Assembly (NCBI GenBank): GCA_000155695.1
Contig: DS990592.1
Coordinates: forward strand, 3,981,820-4,045,819
Source of the DNA: Verrucomicrobiia bacterium DG1235
Lineage (GTDB): Bacteria; Verrucomicrobiota; Verrucomicrobiia; Opitutales; Opitutaceae
Direction: 5' to 3'
Length of the DNA stretch: 64,000 bases
The notes beneath the pieces are model-generated. The model saw only the letters and a list, made by a program, of their open reading frames with translations, had not been told where the DNA came from and made no database searches. A program made the translations under genes and the position numbers. Position 1 is the first letter of the stretch, and the number at the start of each line of letters is the position of its first letter. Below, piece after piece: positions 1 to 7,491 of this stretch.

Positions 1-2
1 GC

Positions 3-3000
3 GTGAATAACGTCTCGTGGCCTAATGCTCTTCCGCTCGCAATCAATCAGGGAGACGAAGCCAGTGTGAAACGTTTTGGGGACGTTCGACAGTTTCTCGC
101 GATGACGGATCAGGCGCGTTGGTATCGATTTGACGTCAGGCCCGGCAGCAAGGTTTCGGTGGTCTTGTCCGAGCTTCCTGCTGATTATGATATTGTCGTT
201 TACCGAGATATAAACGCCGAGTACGAGCGCTTGCTCAAGCTCTTCAATTCGTCTGATCCCGAGGAGCAAAAGTTAGCTCTGCTCGGAGTGGAGTTCGCTC
301 CGGAATCGTTCAGTCCCGAAAGTTTCTCACCCGAATCGTTTAGTCCGGAAAGCTTCTCACCCGAGTCCTTTAGCCCAGAGAGTTTCTCTCCTGAAAGTTT
401 TTCCCCTGAGAGCTTTTCACCCGAATCGTTCAGTCCCGAGAGCTTCTCTCCGGAGTCGTTCAGTCCCGAGAGTTTTTCACCTGAAAGCTTTTCCCCAGAA
501 TCGTTCAGTCCCGAGAGTTTTTCGCCGGAGTCGTTCTCGCCGGAATCGTTCAGTCCTGAGAGCTTTTCGCCTGAATCGTTTAGTCCTGAGAGCTTCTCAC
601 CGGAGTCTTTCTCCGCTGCCCAGGTAACGAGCATGATTGGCTTTTCGGCGTTCTCGGGCTTGGCGAGCGAGGGCGTGTCGATCAACACCTTTACGCATAG
701 CGGCGAGTTCTACGTTCGCGTACGTGGTTCGAATGGAGCTTTCAGCTTGGATGCCCCGTTCAAGCTAACGGTTGTGATCGAGTCCGAGCTTTGCGAGGGA
801 ATCGTGGGTAGCAGTGAGCTGGGCGATGCTTCGCTCCCTGTGCCGGCCGCGAATGATTTTGAAACGGTTATCGTTTGGGATTCGCTGAGGACTCCAGGCG
901 AAGCGGATCTTGAGGAGAAGCTGCAAGCGTTTGCTGATCGTCCGGATGTGAACGGCGTGGTCGTTGACGTCTCGGAAGAAGACAGGGTTTTTAATGCGAA
1001 CGTGCAGGCGGATCTCAATCCCACTTGTCCCTACGCTAAGAACATCGTGGCTGAGGAGATCAAAGCGATAATAGATAGCTGGCGGGTGAAGAGCTCTCGA
1101 CTCAAGTATGTGGTGCTCGTAGGCAGCGATGATGCGATTCCGTTTTTCCGCATGTCGGACGAGGCGTTTCTGGCGAACGAGGCAAACTACATACCGCCGG
1201 TAAGGGACAGCACGCATTCGCAGTCGAGCCTGCGCTTTGGCCAGATTTTGACGCAGGATCCTTATGGAGCCGCTTGCGAGCTGAATCTTGTAACGGGCGT
1301 CTTTCCTTATCCTGAATTGGCGGTGGGTCGACTTGTCGAGACTGCGGAGGAGATTGTTTCTCAACTCGATAATTTCTCTGCGAGCAATGGTATTCTAAAT
1401 CCCACTACGGGGCTTGTGACTGGCTATGATTTCTTGGACGATGCCGCGCTCGAGATTCTCGTCGAATTCGAGGAGGCGCTTGGAGCTCCTGTCGATTCGC
1501 TGATTGCGGACGCCAGTCTCTCGCCAGACGAGGGGTGGACAGCGACTCAATTGTCCGAATTGCTTTTTGGCTCGCGGCACGACCTGATTTTCCTCGCGGG
1601 CCACTTCAGCACTGGAAGCGCGCTGGCGGCGGATTATCAAACGCGTTTGACCGCTGCTCAAGTGGTAGACTCTGGAGCGGATTTTCTGAACAGTCTGATC
1701 TTTAGCGTGGGTTGTCATGCTGGATACAATACAGTCGATGGGCACGCGATCGAAGGGATCACGAATCAGCCCGACTGGGCGCAGGCCTTCGGGCGCTTGG
1801 GGGCGACGCTAATCGCTGGAACAGGCTACCAGTATGGTGACACGGAGTTTGTCGAATACAGCGAGCGGCTTTATCTCGAGTTTGCGAGGCAGTTGCGTAC
1901 GGGAGCTGGGTCCGTATCGGTTGGCGAAGCGTTGAACAAAGCCAAGCGTAAGTACCTTGCGGAGACGCCATTGATGCGTGGCATTCACGAGAAGTCGCTT
2001 CTGCAGGCGACCTTGTTTGGATTCCCCATGCTTCAAGTGGATGTGCCTAGCGAACGTCTTGAAGATGAGTCAAGTGTACCTGATCTGGGAGTTGTACCAG
2101 TTTTAGTGCCACGCTATTCGGTCGATTTCCCCGGTTCTGGACATGCGCTTGGGCTGGAGACGGCAGGCATTAGCATCACGCCGGAACTGACGCCAAAGGA
2201 GCTCGCTCTCGATGTAGTAGGCAAGCCAGGCGAAACTGTTACGGCGCGTTGGTACGCTGGTAAGGATGGAGTGGTGAGCAACCCTGTGGAGCCGGTGCGT
2301 CCATTGGAAATATTTGGAGTATCGGTGGATGACACGCTTCTGCGCGGAGTCGGGTTTCGCGGTGGACGTTTTATGGATAGCCCGAATTTTCTACCGCTTA
2401 CGGGAGCTCCCGCGACGGAAATTCGCGGAGTGTATGGGAGCTTTTTCTCGGAGGTATATTATCCGATACAACCCTATAGCGTGAACTATTTGGGAGCGGT
2501 TTGCGGAGAGGAGCAAGGTGAGATCCTAAATGTATATCCGTCGCAATATCTTGCTAACAAGAACGGCGTTCTCGGGGGTACTTTGCGCAAGTATGATGGG
2601 ATGGATTTCCGTTTGTATTATAATAACAACAGGGAAGTTTGGGCTAATACTCACGAAGGTGAAAGCTATAATGTAATTCCCGCGTTGGCGCCGGCTCCGT
2701 CTATTGCCAAGGTGCTATCGTCCCTTAGCGAAGATGGCGCGTCGGTAGAGTTTAACATTAAGGTATTGGGAGTGCCGGCGGCTGGCATTCACGAGGCTTG
2801 GATCACATATATGTTTGCCGATCCGAGCAATTCAAACGGAGAGTGGGTTTCGCTCGATCTGTCGCAGGATAGTGAGGATTCCACCCATTGGACAGCGATC
2901 CTACCGCTAAACGGAGCTGCCCCTGAGAGTCTCCGCTTCATGGTGCAGGCTGTATCCGGAACAGGATTGGTGTCGCTTCGTACGAACTACGGGCACTACT

Positions 3001-4607
3001 TTTCCGTAGAGGTCGAAAGTACGGCCACGCGAACGCCGACGACGCTCAGCTTTCTCAGTTCGACACCTGAAAGCGGAGCTTATGGAGATACGATATCGGT
3101 CGCGACGGTATTGAAAGATCACGAAGGCAATCCGCTTGCCGAGCGTTCGGTGGGACTGCGAGTCGGGACTTCAAAGTCACTCGGTATGACTGATGAATTG
3201 GGACAGGTGAGCTTTACCTTGGACCTGACAACTCGGCCGACCACGGGTCTTATATTGCAAGCTTACTTCGAGGGCGATGTGGATCACCTGGCGAGCTCGG
3301 CTGAGGCGAATGTAGATGTTTTAAAACAGTCGACGACGCTCAGCTTCATCAATCCGCCGCGGGTATCTGAACCCGTATTAGGTTCGGGGATTGTGGTAAG
3401 TTTGGTAGATGGAGCAGGCACGCCACTTAAAGAAAGAACGGTATTCTTCCTGGTCGACTATGGATCCTCTAAAATGGGTCATTCGGTGATTACGGATCTG
3501 TCCGGTCGAGCCGACTTGGCCGAGGTCTTACTGCCTTTTGGCGAGGCGACTATTTCCGCTTATTTTAATGATATAGTACTGCCGAGTGGAGAAACGGTTT
3601 TCATTGCGGATGAATTGTACGAGCCTGCGACTCCGGTGAGTATTCGAGTTTTGATTACAGAGCCAGTGGAAACGGGAGGGCTCTTTTTCGATCCTAAGAG
3701 CGTGGATGTTAATTATCGGTCGGGCTCGTTGGCGTATCGGAATGCTAAGATTCAGGGAGGGTTGATTTTCGAAGTGCCACTATCGCCAGCGGAGATCGTC
3801 GCCGCATCGTCGAACTCCGGTTTCGTTTCCGCCTCGTTTGAGGCAAAGCTAGCGGGCGAGGTCATAGCCTCGGAGTCATTGCTTCTCAAAACATCGGGCA
3901 AGGATGATCAGGTTTGGAGCGCGAATAGCCACTTTCAAAATGGCGTATCTTCCATCTGGATACGTTGGACTGATGAGGCTCGTTTTGACACGTCGCTGAG
4001 CGAGCGTTCAGGACCGAGAGTTTCGACCTTCTATATGAGCAAGCAACGAACTGGGTACAGGTTCTATCCTCAGCCAAATGGTGGAAGCTATGTAACTCAC
4101 ATCCCCAACGGCGGTCCAAGCATCGTGGTCAAGGATGGCAAGGTCGATCTTGGCAGCAGTACGGGCCTTAGGCCGGGTAGTTTTTTCTTGTACGGAGACG
4201 TGCTGAGTTTCGTGGTCAGGGCTGAGTTGAAGGAGGGGATGGAATTTGTCACTGTCTTCGACGATTCCACTCTGCCGGACTTTACTGTAGAGGTGGTAGA
4301 GGGAGTGAATCTTCTGACGAAGACAGGTAACATAATCGTGCGGCTCGGCGCGGATGGCTCTTTTGCGGAGCCGCTCTCGGACGATCCTTCCAATCGACTC
4401 GAATGTCGCCTAGTCTTGGGTGAAAGTGAAGGCTCTCGGATTACTTCAATTTTTGGGATTGGGGATGGTCCCGGATTGGAACCCTGGACACGTGAAAAAC
4501 CAAATAACAAGCAGTATCGGAGGAGTTCGCATTCGCGAAGGTACGATGACGGAAATGGTCGATACTTTAAAATGAACGATGCCGAGAAGTTGATTCTTAG
4601 CAAATAG
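3..4607 (+). CDS. C25 (gingipain-like) cysteine peptidase with PESFS repeat, 5' partial
   Basis: The frame is open from the first complete codon and the product (1534 residues here) has no signal peptide, so the gene almost certainly starts upstream; the GTG at position 3 is only the first possible codon. Residues about 20-70 and 215-255 look like two halves of a PPC (pre-peptidase C-terminal) beta domain, with 21 PESFS repeats (residues 100-204) between them. The peptidase part has the clan CD dyad: H534 in AGHFS and C571 in VGCHAG, with the flanking AVGRL and GFPMLQVD segments usual in C25 peptidases. Two Ig-like (Big-type) domains begin near residues 1010 and 1109. The C-terminal 40 residues are basic and show no PEP-CTERM or type IX sorting motif. 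It is likely secreted or on the surface. The substrate is unknown. The family call is firm, the role is inferred. Confidence 0.8.
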   Translation: MNNVSWPNALPLAINQGDEASVKRFGDVRQFLAMTDQARWYRFDVRPGSKVSVVLSELPADYDIVVYRDINAEYERLLKLFNSSDPEEQKLALLGVEFAPESFSPESFSPESFSPESFSPESFSPESFSPESFSPESFSPESFSPESFSPESFSPESFSPESFSPESFSPESFSPESFSPESFSPESFSPESFSPESFSPESFSAAQVTSMIGFSAFSGLASEGVSINTFTHSGEFYVRVRGSNGAFSLDAPFKLTVVIESELCEGIVGSSELGDASLPVPAANDFETVIVWDSLRTPGEADLEEKLQAFADRPDVNGVVVDVSEEDRVFNANVQADLNPTCPYAKNIVAEEIKAIIDSWRVKSSRLKYVVLVGSDDAIPFFRMSDEAFLANEANYIPPVRDSTHSQSSLRFGQILTQDPYGAACELNLVTGVFPYPELAVGRLVETAEEIVSQLDNFSASNGILNPTTGLVTGYDFLDDAALEILVEFEEALGAPVDSLIADASLSPDEGWTATQLSELLFGSRHDLIFLAGHFSTGSALAADYQTRLTAAQVVDSGADFLNSLIFSVGCHAGYNTVDGHAIEGITNQPDWAQAFGRLGATLIAGTGYQYGDTEFVEYSERLYLEFARQLRTGAGSVSVGEALNKAKRKYLAETPLMRGIHEKSLLQATLFGFPMLQVDVPSERLEDESSVPDLGVVPVLVPRYSVDFPGSGHALGLETAGISITPELTPKELALDVVGKPGETVTARWYAGKDGVVSNPVEPVRPLEIFGVSVDDTLLRGVGFRGGRFMDSPNFLPLTGAPATEIRGVYGSFFSEVYYPIQPYSVNYLGAVCGEEQGEILNVYPSQYLANKNGVLGGTLRKYDGMDFRLYYNNNREVWANTHEGESYNVIPALAPAPSIAKVLSSLSEDGASVEFNIKVLGVPAAGIHEAWITYMFADPSNSNGEWVSLDLSQDSEDSTHWTAILPLNGAAPESLRFMVQAVSGTGLVSLRTNYGHYFSVEVESTATRTPTTLSFLSSTPESGAYGDTISVATVLKDHEGNPLAERSVGLRVGTSKSLGMTDELGQVSFTLDLTTRPTTGLILQAYFEGDVDHLASSAEANVDVLKQSTTLSFINPPRVSEPVLGSGIVVSLVDGAGTPLKERTVFFLVDYGSSKMGHSVITDLSGRADLAEVLLPFGEATISAYFNDIVLPSGETVFIADELYEPATPVSIRVLITEPVETGGLFFDPKSVDVNYRSGSLAYRNAKIQGGLIFEVPLSPAEIVAASSNSGFVSASFEAKLAGEVIASESLLLKTSGKDDQVWSANSHFQNGVSSIWIRWTDEARFDTSLSERSGPRVSTFYMSKQRTGYRFYPQPNGGSYVTHIPNGGPSIVVKDGKVDLGSSTGLRPGSFFLYGDVLSFVVRAELKEGMEFVTVFDDSTLPDFTVEVVEGVNLLTKTGNIIVRLGADGSFAEPLSDDPSNRLECRLVLGESEGSRITSIFGIGDGPGLEPWTREKPNNKQYRRSSHSRRYDDGNGRYFKMNDAEKLILSK
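300..614 (+). repeat. 21 tandem 15-bp units encoding PESFS
   Basis: The 315 bases encode exactly 21 copies of Pro-Glu-Ser-Phe-Ser with no amino acid change. At DNA level the units differ by synonymous codons: four proline codons, both glutamate and both phenylalanine codons, and both TCN and AGY serines. In 19 of 21 units the two serines of one unit use opposite codon classes (TCN then AGY, or AGY then TCN); the exceptions are units 16 and 21. The tract lies in the loop of the split PPC domain. Confidence 0.95.
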
Positions 4608-4757
4608 GCAGGAATTTTCCGAATCTGTGTAGTCTTAATATCATTACCAATCGAATTGTGAATTGACCCGTCAATAATGTTCACGCTTAACTTTATAAAT
4701 TGCATTCGCGGAGGCGTTTGCTTTTGAGCTAAATCTTTCTACCGCTGCAATCGCCTT

Positions 4758-5114
4758 ATGCTTACCCTTTTCGAGCAAGCTCTTGTCGTTCACCTTATAG
4801 GTGACTGGATTCTACAGAATGATTGGATGTCCGAGAACAAGCCCAATCTAAAGCATCCGGCGGCTTGGATTCATGGTTTAATACATTTTGTATTGATTAC
4901 GATTGTCCTCGGATGGGTTGCTGGATTGGCGCTTGGTTTTTTGCATATGATGATTGATACGCGTCGCCCGTTTCTCTGGTGGCGAAAGGTTTTCCGAATG
5001 ACGAGCGCAGGCGAGACTGCAACTCATGTGGCGATATGGACTGACCAAGTACTTCACGTGCTATGTCTTGCCATGTGGATACAGTTTGTCGCGCCTCTTA
5101 ATCTCGGTTTGTAG
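4758..5114 (+). CDS. DUF3307 family membrane protein
   Basis: This 118-residue protein begins with the DUF3307 signature: H12 and D16 in HLIGDW, Q20, and W23 ahead of K28, followed by HGLIH (residues 39-43) and a second LHMMID motif. Two to three hydrophobic helices (about 40-63 and 93-112) place it in the inner membrane. The conserved His/Asp pattern suggests metal or substrate binding, but the family has no assigned function that I can name. It lies 150 bases after the giant peptidase gene and 36 bases before the cNMP-binding gene on the same strand, so it may be cotranscribed with the latter. The gap upstream holds a short inverted repeat (ATTGAC, 2 bases, GTCAAT at 4662-4675) of unknown role. 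Confidence 0.7.
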   Translation: MLTLFEQALVVHLIGDWILQNDWMSENKPNLKHPAAWIHGLIHFVLITIVLGWVAGLALGFLHMMIDTRRPFLWWRKVFRMTSAGETATHVAIWTDQVLHVLCLAMWIQFVAPLNLGL

Positions 5115-5150: not shown

Positions 5151-5534
5151 ATGAACGCACCGATTAAGTTCAATATATTAAAGCATGCGGGAGAGCCTAC
5201 TCCTTTCAGCAAAGGCAGTGTCATCTTTAAGAAGGGGGATGCCGGAGAGAGCATGTATCTGGTTTCGTCCGGCAAGGTTGACATCGTGGCCGATGGCAAT
5301 GTGGTCGAAACTCTTACTGACGGGGACATCTTTGGCGAGATGGCGTTGATCGATCATCAGGTCCGGAGCGCGGATGCGGTCGCCAACACGGACTGCGGCG
5401 TTATCTGCATCGATGAGCGTCGTTTCCTTTTCATGACAGAGAACACCCCTCAATTCGCATTGCAGATGATGCGTTTGGTGGCGGCTCGTCTTCGTGATCG
5501 CATGGCGGATTTAGAGCAAATGCAGTCGAGCTAG
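5151..5534 (+). CDS. Stand-alone cyclic nucleotide-binding domain protein
   Basis: The 127 residues are a single cNMP-binding beta-roll of the Crp type. The phosphate-binding cassette is visible as GDIFGEMAL (residues 58-66) with E63 and the conserved R72-S73 that contact the cyclic phosphate and ribose. A short C-terminal helix follows (residues 103-124), but there is no helix-turn-helix, so it is not a DNA-binding Crp homologue. It may bind cAMP or cGMP and act through a protein partner. The glutaminase gene 124 bases downstream ends in a second domain of the same family, which makes a shared signal plausible. That link is inference. Confidence 0.85.
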   Translation: MNAPIKFNILKHAGEPTPFSKGSVIFKKGDAGESMYLVSSGKVDIVADGNVVETLTDGDIFGEMALIDHQVRSADAVANTDCGVICIDERRFLFMTENTPQFALQMMRLVAARLRDRMADLEQMQSS

Positions 5535-5616
5535 GCTTCGTGATCAAGCGGCTTGAGCCTGTCCTTGCCTATTGGATCGAACGCCGCGCGTAGTTTATGC
5601 TTACGCAGCGAAGGCT

Positions 5617-5634
5617 TCGGCATGCTTTTTGCAT
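5617..5634 (+). promoter_or_regulatory. Candidate sigma-54 (-24/-12) promoter of the glutaminase gene
   Basis: GGCATG, four bases, then TTGCAT gives GG and GC dinucleotides with the exact 10-base spacing of the sigma-54 consensus (GGCACG-N4-TTGCW). It ends 24 bases before the preferred ATG at 5659. Sigma-54 control would fit a nitrogen-metabolism gene. No enhancer site was recognised, so confidence is low. Confidence 0.35.
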
Positions 5635-5658
5635 GGCCGTCACCTATTTGTAACCCCA

Positions 5659-7491
5659 ATGAACTCCTTCACTTCTTCCTTTAATAGTATTCGTGAACTT
5701 GTAATCGAAGTTTTCGAGAAACACCGCCATTTGACCGATGGAAAGGTTGCCGACTACATTCCGGAGTTGATGCGAGCCGATCCGGACTGGTTTGGCATAG
5801 CGATCACTACGGTCGATGGGCGCCAGTATTTGGTTGGGGACTCTTCTGTAGAGTTCACGATTCAGTCGATATCTAAGCCTTTTATCTATGGCCTTGCCTT
5901 GGATGCGGTTGGTTTGGAAGGCGTTCGAAAGCGGATCGATGTGGAGCCTTCGGGGGAGGCGTTTAACTCGATCAGCTTGAAGCCGAGCACTGGACAGCCT
6001 CGTAATCCGATGATAAACGCGGGGGCGATCGCGGCGACGGGTATGATATCGGCAAGCAGTGTCGAGGAGCGTTTCGGGTTTATTCGGGATCGGTTCAGCG
6101 CCTTTGCGGGAAAGCAGCTGGGATTTGACGAATCGGTCTACAAATCCGAGAGCGATACTGGTTTTCGTAATCGTGCGATCGGGAACTTGCTGAGAAATTT
6201 CGACATTCTTGAAGGCGAGGTAGATCCGGTCCTTGAGGCGTATTTCATGCAGTGCGCTTTGCTTGTCGATAGTCAGGCCCTGTCCGTTATGGGGGCGACT
6301 TTGGCGAACGGGGGCGTGAATCCGATCACTGGCAATCGCGTGCTTTCGGCGTCGTCCGTGGAGAAGGTGATTAGCGTGATGAGCACCTGTGGCATGTACG
6401 ACTACTCGGGAAACTGGGCCTTCGAGGTGGGAATCCCGGCCAAGAGCGGAGTGGGCGGGGGCATCATTGGCGTATTGCCTGGCCAATTGAGCGTCGCGGT
6501 TTTTTCGCCTTTGCTAGACGAGAATTTCAATAGCGTCAGAGGAATCGCGACCTTTCGTGATTTGTCTGCCAACTTTGGGCTGCATCTTTTTAATCGGCCC
6601 TCGCTCACGAATTATGTGATTCGGCGCAGCTACACGTTGGCGGAGTTTCAATCGAGTCGCTTCCGGCCTTTGGAGTCGCAGGATATCCTGCATCAGGAAG
6701 GGCATCGGGTGCGTATTTTCGAGTTGCAGGGAGATCTTTATTTCGGGGCTGCGGAGCGCTTGATTCATGCCTACTTGCAGGTGATCGACGATACGGATCG
6801 GGTGCTTATCGATTTGAGTCGAATTGGAAGTATCGATGATGCCACTCGCGGGGTGATGTTTCGCTTTGCCAAACAGGCGTTCGATAAGGGGAAGCGAATT
6901 GTCCTAGTGGATCCAGGACAGATATTTTCCGATAAGGAGCGCAAGAGTTTGGTGCCGATGGTATTTGTATATAACGATTGTGATGAAGCTCTGGAAGATG
7001 CGGAGGAGAATCTTCTCGCCCAGTTCGACGCTCGTTTTGCGGCAGGCGCCCGTGTGGATTTGGCGGATATGGATCTTCTCCAAGGGGTGTCTAGTGCCGC
7101 GATTGCTACGCTAAGAGAAAAGTCTGTGGAGAGTTCCTTTACCTCGGGCGACCGTATTATCAAAAACGGGGATGCGCCCGATGAATTGTTTTTCCTGGCT
7201 CGGGGAATCGTGGGAGTGAATCTCTCTGGAGGGGATGCGAAGGTTGCCAAGCAAGTGTCCAGTTTTTGTGCGGGAATGAGCTTTGGAGAGTTGGGTTTTT
7301 TGCATGGAGAAGTTCGCACCGCAGACGTAGTGGCGGTGACGGATGTCGAGGTCATCAGCCTGAGCCGAAAGTGCTTGGAAGAGTTCAGAAGCAATCACCC
7401 GCTGGACTACGGCGAAATTTTGAGGAACGTAATCCTATCGATGTCGCAGCGGCTTGTTAGGGCGAACCGCGAGGTGGCGGCGCTGCGTTAA
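5659..7491 (+). CDS. glsA: Glutaminase A fused to STAS and cyclic nucleotide-binding domains
   Basis: The enzyme hydrolyses L-glutamine to glutamate and ammonia. The N-terminal 305 residues are a serine-type glutaminase of the beta-lactamase-like fold, with the S70-I-S-K73 motif supplying nucleophile and general base and NPMINAGAI downstream. Around residues 345-440 lies a STAS domain (strand VLIDLSRIGSIDD), and the C terminus (about 480-600) is a cNMP-binding roll with E544 and R553 in its phosphate cassette. Total is 610 residues against about 310 for the plain enzyme. The ATG at 5659 is preferred over an upstream in-frame TTG at 5572, since the extra 29 residues resemble no family member. 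The regulatory tail suggests control by a cyclic nucleotide and by protein contacts. This is inference from domains. Confidence 0.9.
   Translation: MNSFTSSFNSIRELVIEVFEKHRHLTDGKVADYIPELMRADPDWFGIAITTVDGRQYLVGDSSVEFTIQSISKPFIYGLALDAVGLEGVRKRIDVEPSGEAFNSISLKPSTGQPRNPMINAGAIAATGMISASSVEERFGFIRDRFSAFAGKQLGFDESVYKSESDTGFRNRAIGNLLRNFDILEGEVDPVLEAYFMQCALLVDSQALSVMGATLANGGVNPITGNRVLSASSVEKVISVMSTCGMYDYSGNWAFEVGIPAKSGVGGGIIGVLPGQLSVAVFSPLLDENFNSVRGIATFRDLSANFGLHLFNRPSLTNYVIRRSYTLAEFQSSRFRPLESQDILHQEGHRVRIFELQGDLYFGAAERLIHAYLQVIDDTDRVLIDLSRIGSIDDATRGVMFRFAKQAFDKGKRIVLVDPGQIFSDKERKSLVPMVFVYNDCDEALEDAEENLLAQFDARFAAGARVDLADMDLLQGVSSAAIATLREKSVESSFTSGDRIIKNGDAPDELFFLARGIVGVNLSGGDAKVAKQVSSFCAGMSFGELGFLHGEVRTADVVAVTDVEVISLSRKCLEEFRSNHPLDYGEILRNVILSMSQRLVRANREVAALR

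Follow-up and report, generated by a model that had tools for sequence, protein, structure and literature searches.

A run of 21 perfect PESFS pentapeptides encoded by Verrucomicrobiia bacterium DG1235 is one member of a family of repeat arrays that is common to two phyla and near-fixed in copy number, an observation that points beyond the initial annotation of the tract. The reading that we favour, with a probability of roughly 55%, is that of a length-constrained loop array beside a C25-type peptidase, its DNA renewed by recombination, with the relic of a dimer kept in this lineage. The tract lies in a 64,000-nucleotide stretch of DNA that was analysed as a whole and is called the window here; its features are collected in Table 1.

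Table 1. Features of the window around the PESFS array (positions within the window).
Feature	Position	Strand	Remarks
3' part of a 2736-codon open frame (L002, G000:C6)	3–4607	+	Starts upstream of the window
PPC-like β-sandwich, N-terminal half	3–299	+	Ends GVEFA just 5' of the array; predicted from alignment and the fold match of homologue L034; boundaries approximate
Antisense open frame, 162 amino acids	200–688	−	Spans the array; regarded as a side effect of the repeat
PESFS array, 21 units (105 residues)	300–614	+	Predicted to be looped out of the PPC-like domain; placement from the homologue model
PPC-like domain, C-terminal half, AAQVTSMIGFSAF to the FYVRVRG strand	615–780	+	Predicted; end approximate
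C25-type peptidase region	840–2066	+	Pfam Peptidase_C25 match 1056–1370; alignment A6
Candidate catalytic His (LAGHFS)	1602–1604	+	Invariant in 8 of 8 aligned sequences, window included
Candidate catalytic Cys (VGCHAGYN)	1713–1715	+	Invariant in 8 of 8 aligned sequences, window included
Ig-like Big_1-type stretch	3087–3242	+	Below the Pfam cut-off

The predicted host domain and its neighbours

The array is predicted to be a loop-out of a PPC-like β-sandwich, anchored at both ends. This rests on an AlphaFold model of the PPC and array part of L034, a Chloroflexota homologue (mean pLDDT 59; most PPC blocks about 62–88), whose best structural match is the ColG s3b collagen-binding domain (1nqd; Z 11.4, rmsd 2.7 over 101 residues). 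The modelled fold is accordingly that of the PPC and collagen-binding domains of secreted proteases, from which the host domain differs in three respects. It encloses a repeat loop of 80–105 residues, it precedes the peptidase region rather than following it, and the Pfam PPC profile is absent both from the four families matched by the window frame at E 0.1 and from the seven matched by the 2725-residue protein at E 0.05. Block means of pLDDT within the array are about 35–42 in the L034 model and 28–40 in a model of the window's PPC, array and C25 parts (mean pLDDT 51), so that the array is left with no reliable predicted structure, which counts against reading it as a rigid element or one of measured length.

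Downstream of the array the protein resembles gingipain-type C25 peptidases: the window frame matches Peptidase_C25 (PF01364) at 27.1 bits against a cut-off of 23 (residues 352–456), and the candidate His and Cys, which may be the catalytic dyad, judging from the clan CD motif, are both invariant. The match is partial (profile positions 52–143 of 374), and it is unlisted in the Pfam scan of the 2725-residue protein at E 0.05. To our knowledge, gingipains carry no such array. Surface Ig-like, HYR and Chlam_PMP matches lie above the Pfam cut-off 5' of the array, with sub-threshold matches to β-helix and Big_13 families, and from this domain make-up the host protein is probably secreted. NCBIfam gave no match at E 0.1, nor did PDB sequences match the family profile at E 0.01. 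By eye, the frames further downstream in the window (5151–7491) resemble a protein that binds cyclic nucleotides and a glutaminase with regulatory domains attached by fusion.

Silent diversity and serine codons in the window

All 21 PESFS units are in frame and none is altered, as the initial annotation had stated. It had also described heavy silent diversity beneath the perfect protein repeat, and 20 of the 21 units are indeed distinct as 15-mers. Since 20.2 distinct units are expected when codons are drawn at random from the rest of the same ORF, the silent sites of this array are near saturation; mean codon identity between pairs of units is 0.329, against 0.356 for random draws. Longer periods of 30, 45, 75 and 90 bases are superimposed on the 15-bp tandem.

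The two serines of each unit are not encoded independently. With a for TCN-AGY, b for AGY-TCN and c for TCN-TCN, the units run abababbbababbabcababc, that is, eight a, eleven b, two c and no AGY-AGY. The earlier count of one TCN and one AGY serine in 19 of 21 units, and two AGY in none, is therefore exact, and the complementarity exceeds chance both by Fisher's test (P 2.2e-4) and by the probability of at least 19 mixed units of 21 under independent classes (binomial P 3.3e-5, with an AGY share of 0.37 in the ORF). Every a unit is followed by a b unit (8 of 8; P 0.001 with unit order permuted).

Homologous arrays in two phyla

Genome contigs were scanned with a pattern that required repeated PExFS-like units. 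Nine of the 29 stretches recovered were assigned to the family (eight from Chloroflexota, one from Opitutales); the other 20 were dropped by eye, and L017, L023 and L024 showed no run. Because the pattern asked for repeated units, the uniformity of nine of the 13 loci compared below is partly selected by the search; their copy number is not. Searches of drawn genomes, whose counts include the window's own genome, recovered G020 among relatives (2 of 57 at E 1e-5), G747 and G803 from the class (3 of 384) and, in a search of the taxonomic family at E 1e-40, 3 of 252 genomes, the third being a fragment in G465. An array-free C25 profile built from alignment A6 matched 2 of 223 genomes drawn from the order, both of which carry the array; G958, found with the array-free profile, shows no difference from L014 in the 4035 bases that were aligned. 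Only the window's own genome was recovered from a phylum-wide draw of 387, and there were no matches in seven congeners, none in plasmids by tblastn, and no relatives in a scan with the window protein. Carriage on a plasmid was rejected on the tblastn result. Within what was searched, with Chloroflexota covered through the contig pattern scan, the family is rare and patchy. Neither the array nor its repeat strings were found in print within the open-licence literature searched.

Two further sequences stand apart. The G465 fragment (L038, contig C507) has its PPC part joined in frame to the late C25 region; the array is missing from this partial homologue, as are the motifs GHFS and GCHSG, through either a deletion or misassembly of the bin. 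An IMG/VR contig from the viral scan (L041, positions 1–120) has eight identical 15-bp repeats that read PEAFS in one frame; it was rejected as a look-alike because its repeats are perfectly identical as DNA and it has no family context.

Near-fixed copy number and lineage-specific motifs

Thirteen loci were compared: the window, G020, L014, the eight Chloroflexota loci, G747 and G803. In all of them, across order, class and Chloroflexota, the array occupies the matching place between E[FY]A and xAQ, flank anchors that the script required. Ten of the 13 arrays have exactly 19 units, including all eight from Chloroflexota, and the others have 16 (G020), 20 (G747) and 21 (window). The number is thus not invariable, and half of the ten arrays with 19 units come from close relatives. 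Across the 13 loci compared, the arrays do not behave as variable-number tandem repeats of the contingency type, whose copy number differs among close relatives. A tree of the flanks, computed from 12 rows (L021, with a 3' flank of four residues, was left out, and L020 fills 48% of the columns), separates the window, L014 and G020 from the other nine rows on a branch with support 100/99. Arrays of 19 units are found on both sides of this branch, and about 1.4 changes per column separate the window from the nearest Chloroflexota rows.

The motif is lineage-specific and most arrays are nearly uniform. The Chloroflexota arrays use PEAFS; G020 has 15 PEAYS and a final PEAYA; G803 has PAAFS in 17 of 19 units; PAQFS makes up only 14 of the 20 units of G747; and L014 combines 17 PESFS with one RPNFA and one RPNWA. 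These last two, units 2 and 16, retain the aromatic and the small last residue. Summed by hand over the 13 arrays, 246 of 247 units have an aromatic residue at position 4 and all 247 have Ser or Ala at position 5. Twelve of the 13 arrays contain neither Lys nor Arg. Unit 13 carries an Asp variant in five Chloroflexota loci, as PDAFS in L011, L016, L021 and L031 and as ADAYS in L020; common to two Chloroflexota lineages, this Asp possibly marks a functional position.

Silent turnover within the Chloroflexota arrays

Among the arrays of L009, L011, L016 and L031, pN is 0–0.004 and pS 0.68–0.82 in all six pairs, and the flanks of the same pairs have a lower pS of 0.26–0.48 in 6 of 6. These homologous arrays lend strong support to the protein-level purifying selection that had been suggested for the window's tract. 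Of the results named at that stage as refuting the idea, some were obtained: serine pairing is random in the nearest homologue, and other homologues have a different motif. A matched codon test, which takes residues shared among P, E, A, F and S and asks whether the codon differs, places the array above the flanks in all six pairs (Fisher P < 0.01 in four; not significant in the remaining two, P 0.14 and 0.08), and the array also exceeds the highest 95-codon stretch of flank in each pair.

This turnover is uneven along the array. When L021 is added to make five close loci, the end units prove stable (on average 4.0 of 5 codons identical in the first and 4.6 in the last), and most interior units do not keep most of their codons; unit 13 keeps its Asp in four of the five loci with only 1.9 of 5 codons identical. 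Two of the ten pairs share off-register DNA runs of 53 and 59 bases (P 0.007 and 0.003) and shared 15-mers stand out in two others (P 0.037 and 0.030), all uncorrected for the number of tests; run length shows no excess in eight of the ten close pairs, and the remaining six pairs have neither excess at 0.05. In some comparisons the serine classes of the array change as a block, in others not. Between L009 and L034, the serine class has changed at 18 of 19 array positions against 4 of 16 in the flanks; between L026 and L034, the corresponding figures are 0 of 19 and 6 of 22. A codon orthology test over the 45 pairs of same-length arrays yields four with P < 0.05, the lowest at 0.0075. We infer that the Chloroflexota turnover reflects recombination within the array, with sequence and length under selection.

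Origin of the serine pairing

The TCN/AGY anticorrelation, which the initial annotation wished to see followed into other strains, does not recur in the one homologue that can show it. The main motif of 11 arrays has Ala or Gln at position 3, which leaves L014, the nearest homologue, as the sole array able to test the pairing. Its 17 PESFS units comprise eight AGY-TCN, six TCN-TCN, two AGY-AGY and one TCN-AGY, which is random pairing (Fisher P 1.0), and complementarity as a general rule was rejected. Nor do the serine classes of the window and L014 fall into a clear register: at the best offset, 2, they match at 22 of 34 positions. Codon context was rejected as a cause, since no strong enough serine preference beside E, F or P was found in the window's long open frames, of which 34 that do not overlap were used, with the array gene included and the array itself excluded.

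Judging from the codons themselves, the complementarity in the window appears to be the remnant of a 30-bp dimer, peculiar to this lineage. Type-a units share TCG in 7 of 8 and AGT in 7 of 8 (P 0.006 for AGT), which together with the unfailing succession of a by b preserves one part of the earlier proposal, two ancestral unit types; the other part, free mixing of 15-bp types, is less well supported than a 30-bp dimer. Against the dimer, a recent spread would predict that the codons for P, E and F follow the a/b type, and they do not (P 0.47, 0.17 and 0.65). According to published work, codons do cross from one serine island to the other, and codon models are affected by such jumps (PMC7954308). 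The pairing would persist because such crossings are slow, not because the pairing is selected.

The Ser-Asp repeats of staphylococcal adhesins, described as varying in number, are an earlier example of repeat DNA in which TCN and AGY codons mark the unit (PMC3324548). The present array, whose motif is PESFS, is not a Ser-Asp dipeptide array, and it differs from those repeats also in forming a predicted domain loop, in its host protein and in its near-fixed number. Protein repeats are described as diverging fast between copies early and being conserved later (PMC5120217), a pattern that the uniform arrays seen here do not resemble.

Alternative explanations

Codon choice may instead have been selected for difference between neighbouring units, preventing slippage and deletion, with the TCN/AGY alternation as part of it. 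Such selection would fit the near-fixed copy number. In four of the 13 arrays, those of the window, L014, L040 and L011, neighbouring units resemble one another less than when unit order is shuffled (lower tails, taken as one minus the upper tail, of about 0.002, 0.014, 0.015 and 0.046), and against random codon draws the lower-tail P is 0.028 or less in 5 of 13. The trend is nevertheless reversed in L026 and L034 by the shuffled-order, random-draw and column-permutation tests alike, and in L009 and L031 by the random-draw test. When codon columns are permuted singly, P is 0.08 for the window, only L011 and L040 of the 13 fall below 0.05, two arrays are significant in the opposite direction, and the z scores summed by hand over the 13 arrays and divided by root 13 come to about −1.2. 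The close Chloroflexota arrays, moreover, turn over all the same. Support for reduced slippage, which the initial annotation had allowed for, is thus mixed; anti-slippage selection is weakly hinted at, and as the explanation of the arrays we think it unlikely.

The silent turnover could be largely an artefact of metagenome assembly, with the arrays otherwise evolving one unit at a time. Of the eight Chloroflexota records, seven are titled MAG and the eighth uncultured, and short reads are poorly suited to assembling a repeat array of 285 bases. Length is what misassembly should upset first, yet all eight loci have 19 units; the end units, too, hold most of their codons and unit 13 its Asp in four of five close loci, and it is the interior that differs. 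We rate this account as distinctly improbable.

A recent neutral minisatellite expansion, in frame by accident, would account for the tandem 15-bp structure with its 30-, 45-, 75- and 90-base periods and is rejected as very improbable, because silent sites are near saturation with the amino acids unchanged and homologues in another phylum keep the array. A role of the nucleic acid itself, as antisense protein, RNA structure or binding site, has the open antisense frame in its favour and is barely credible given a perfect sense protein over nearly saturated silent sites; an RNA element was rejected, with no Rfam match at the gathering threshold in positions 1–5000 of the window.

A proposed mechanism

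A length-constrained loop array renewed by recombination, as we favour, would work as follows. The tract would be one lineage's form of a pentapeptide array, mostly [P][E/A][S/A/Q][F/Y][S], projecting as a loop from a PPC-like β-sandwich that adjoins a C25-type cysteine peptidase region. Selection would hold both the unit sequence and the total length. The array may serve as a spacer or as a contact surface of fixed reach. Gingipains cleave at Lys and Arg, and since these residues are absent from 12 of the 13 arrays, a peptidase of that specificity would not cut it. Recombination within the array would renew the DNA, either by conversion or by unequal exchange with selection then restoring the length, and at times would exchange the motif of almost every unit. 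In the window's lineage, a 30-bp dimer of a TCN-AGY unit and an AGY-TCN unit would have spread through the array, further type-b units being added and the two TCN-TCN units perhaps arising as hybrids.

The five-residue period recalls the pentapeptide repeat proteins, whose family motif is A(D/N)LXX. Small and hydrophobic residues are spaced otherwise in that motif, and membership was rejected since the Pfam pentapeptide-repeat profile matches neither the window frame nor the 2725-residue protein.

Significance

Perfect coding repeats are often young or of variable number. Here the count and the character of the unit are held over deep time, as the silent DNA saturates and the motif becomes lineage-specific. 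Concerted evolution without drift in copy number, across phyla, with recombination continually rewriting the DNA while the count stays near 19, may tentatively be taken to mark a length-measuring element, hitherto undescribed, in secreted proteases of the C25 type, a proposal to which we give worse than even odds. The serine classes act as a slow marker of unit history that is lost at ordinary silent sites. The arrays raise the question of the function, next to a protease, of a 95-residue loop whose length is near-fixed, and they offer a natural system for how selection fixes repeat number and for conversion versus unequal exchange as the means by which units are renewed.
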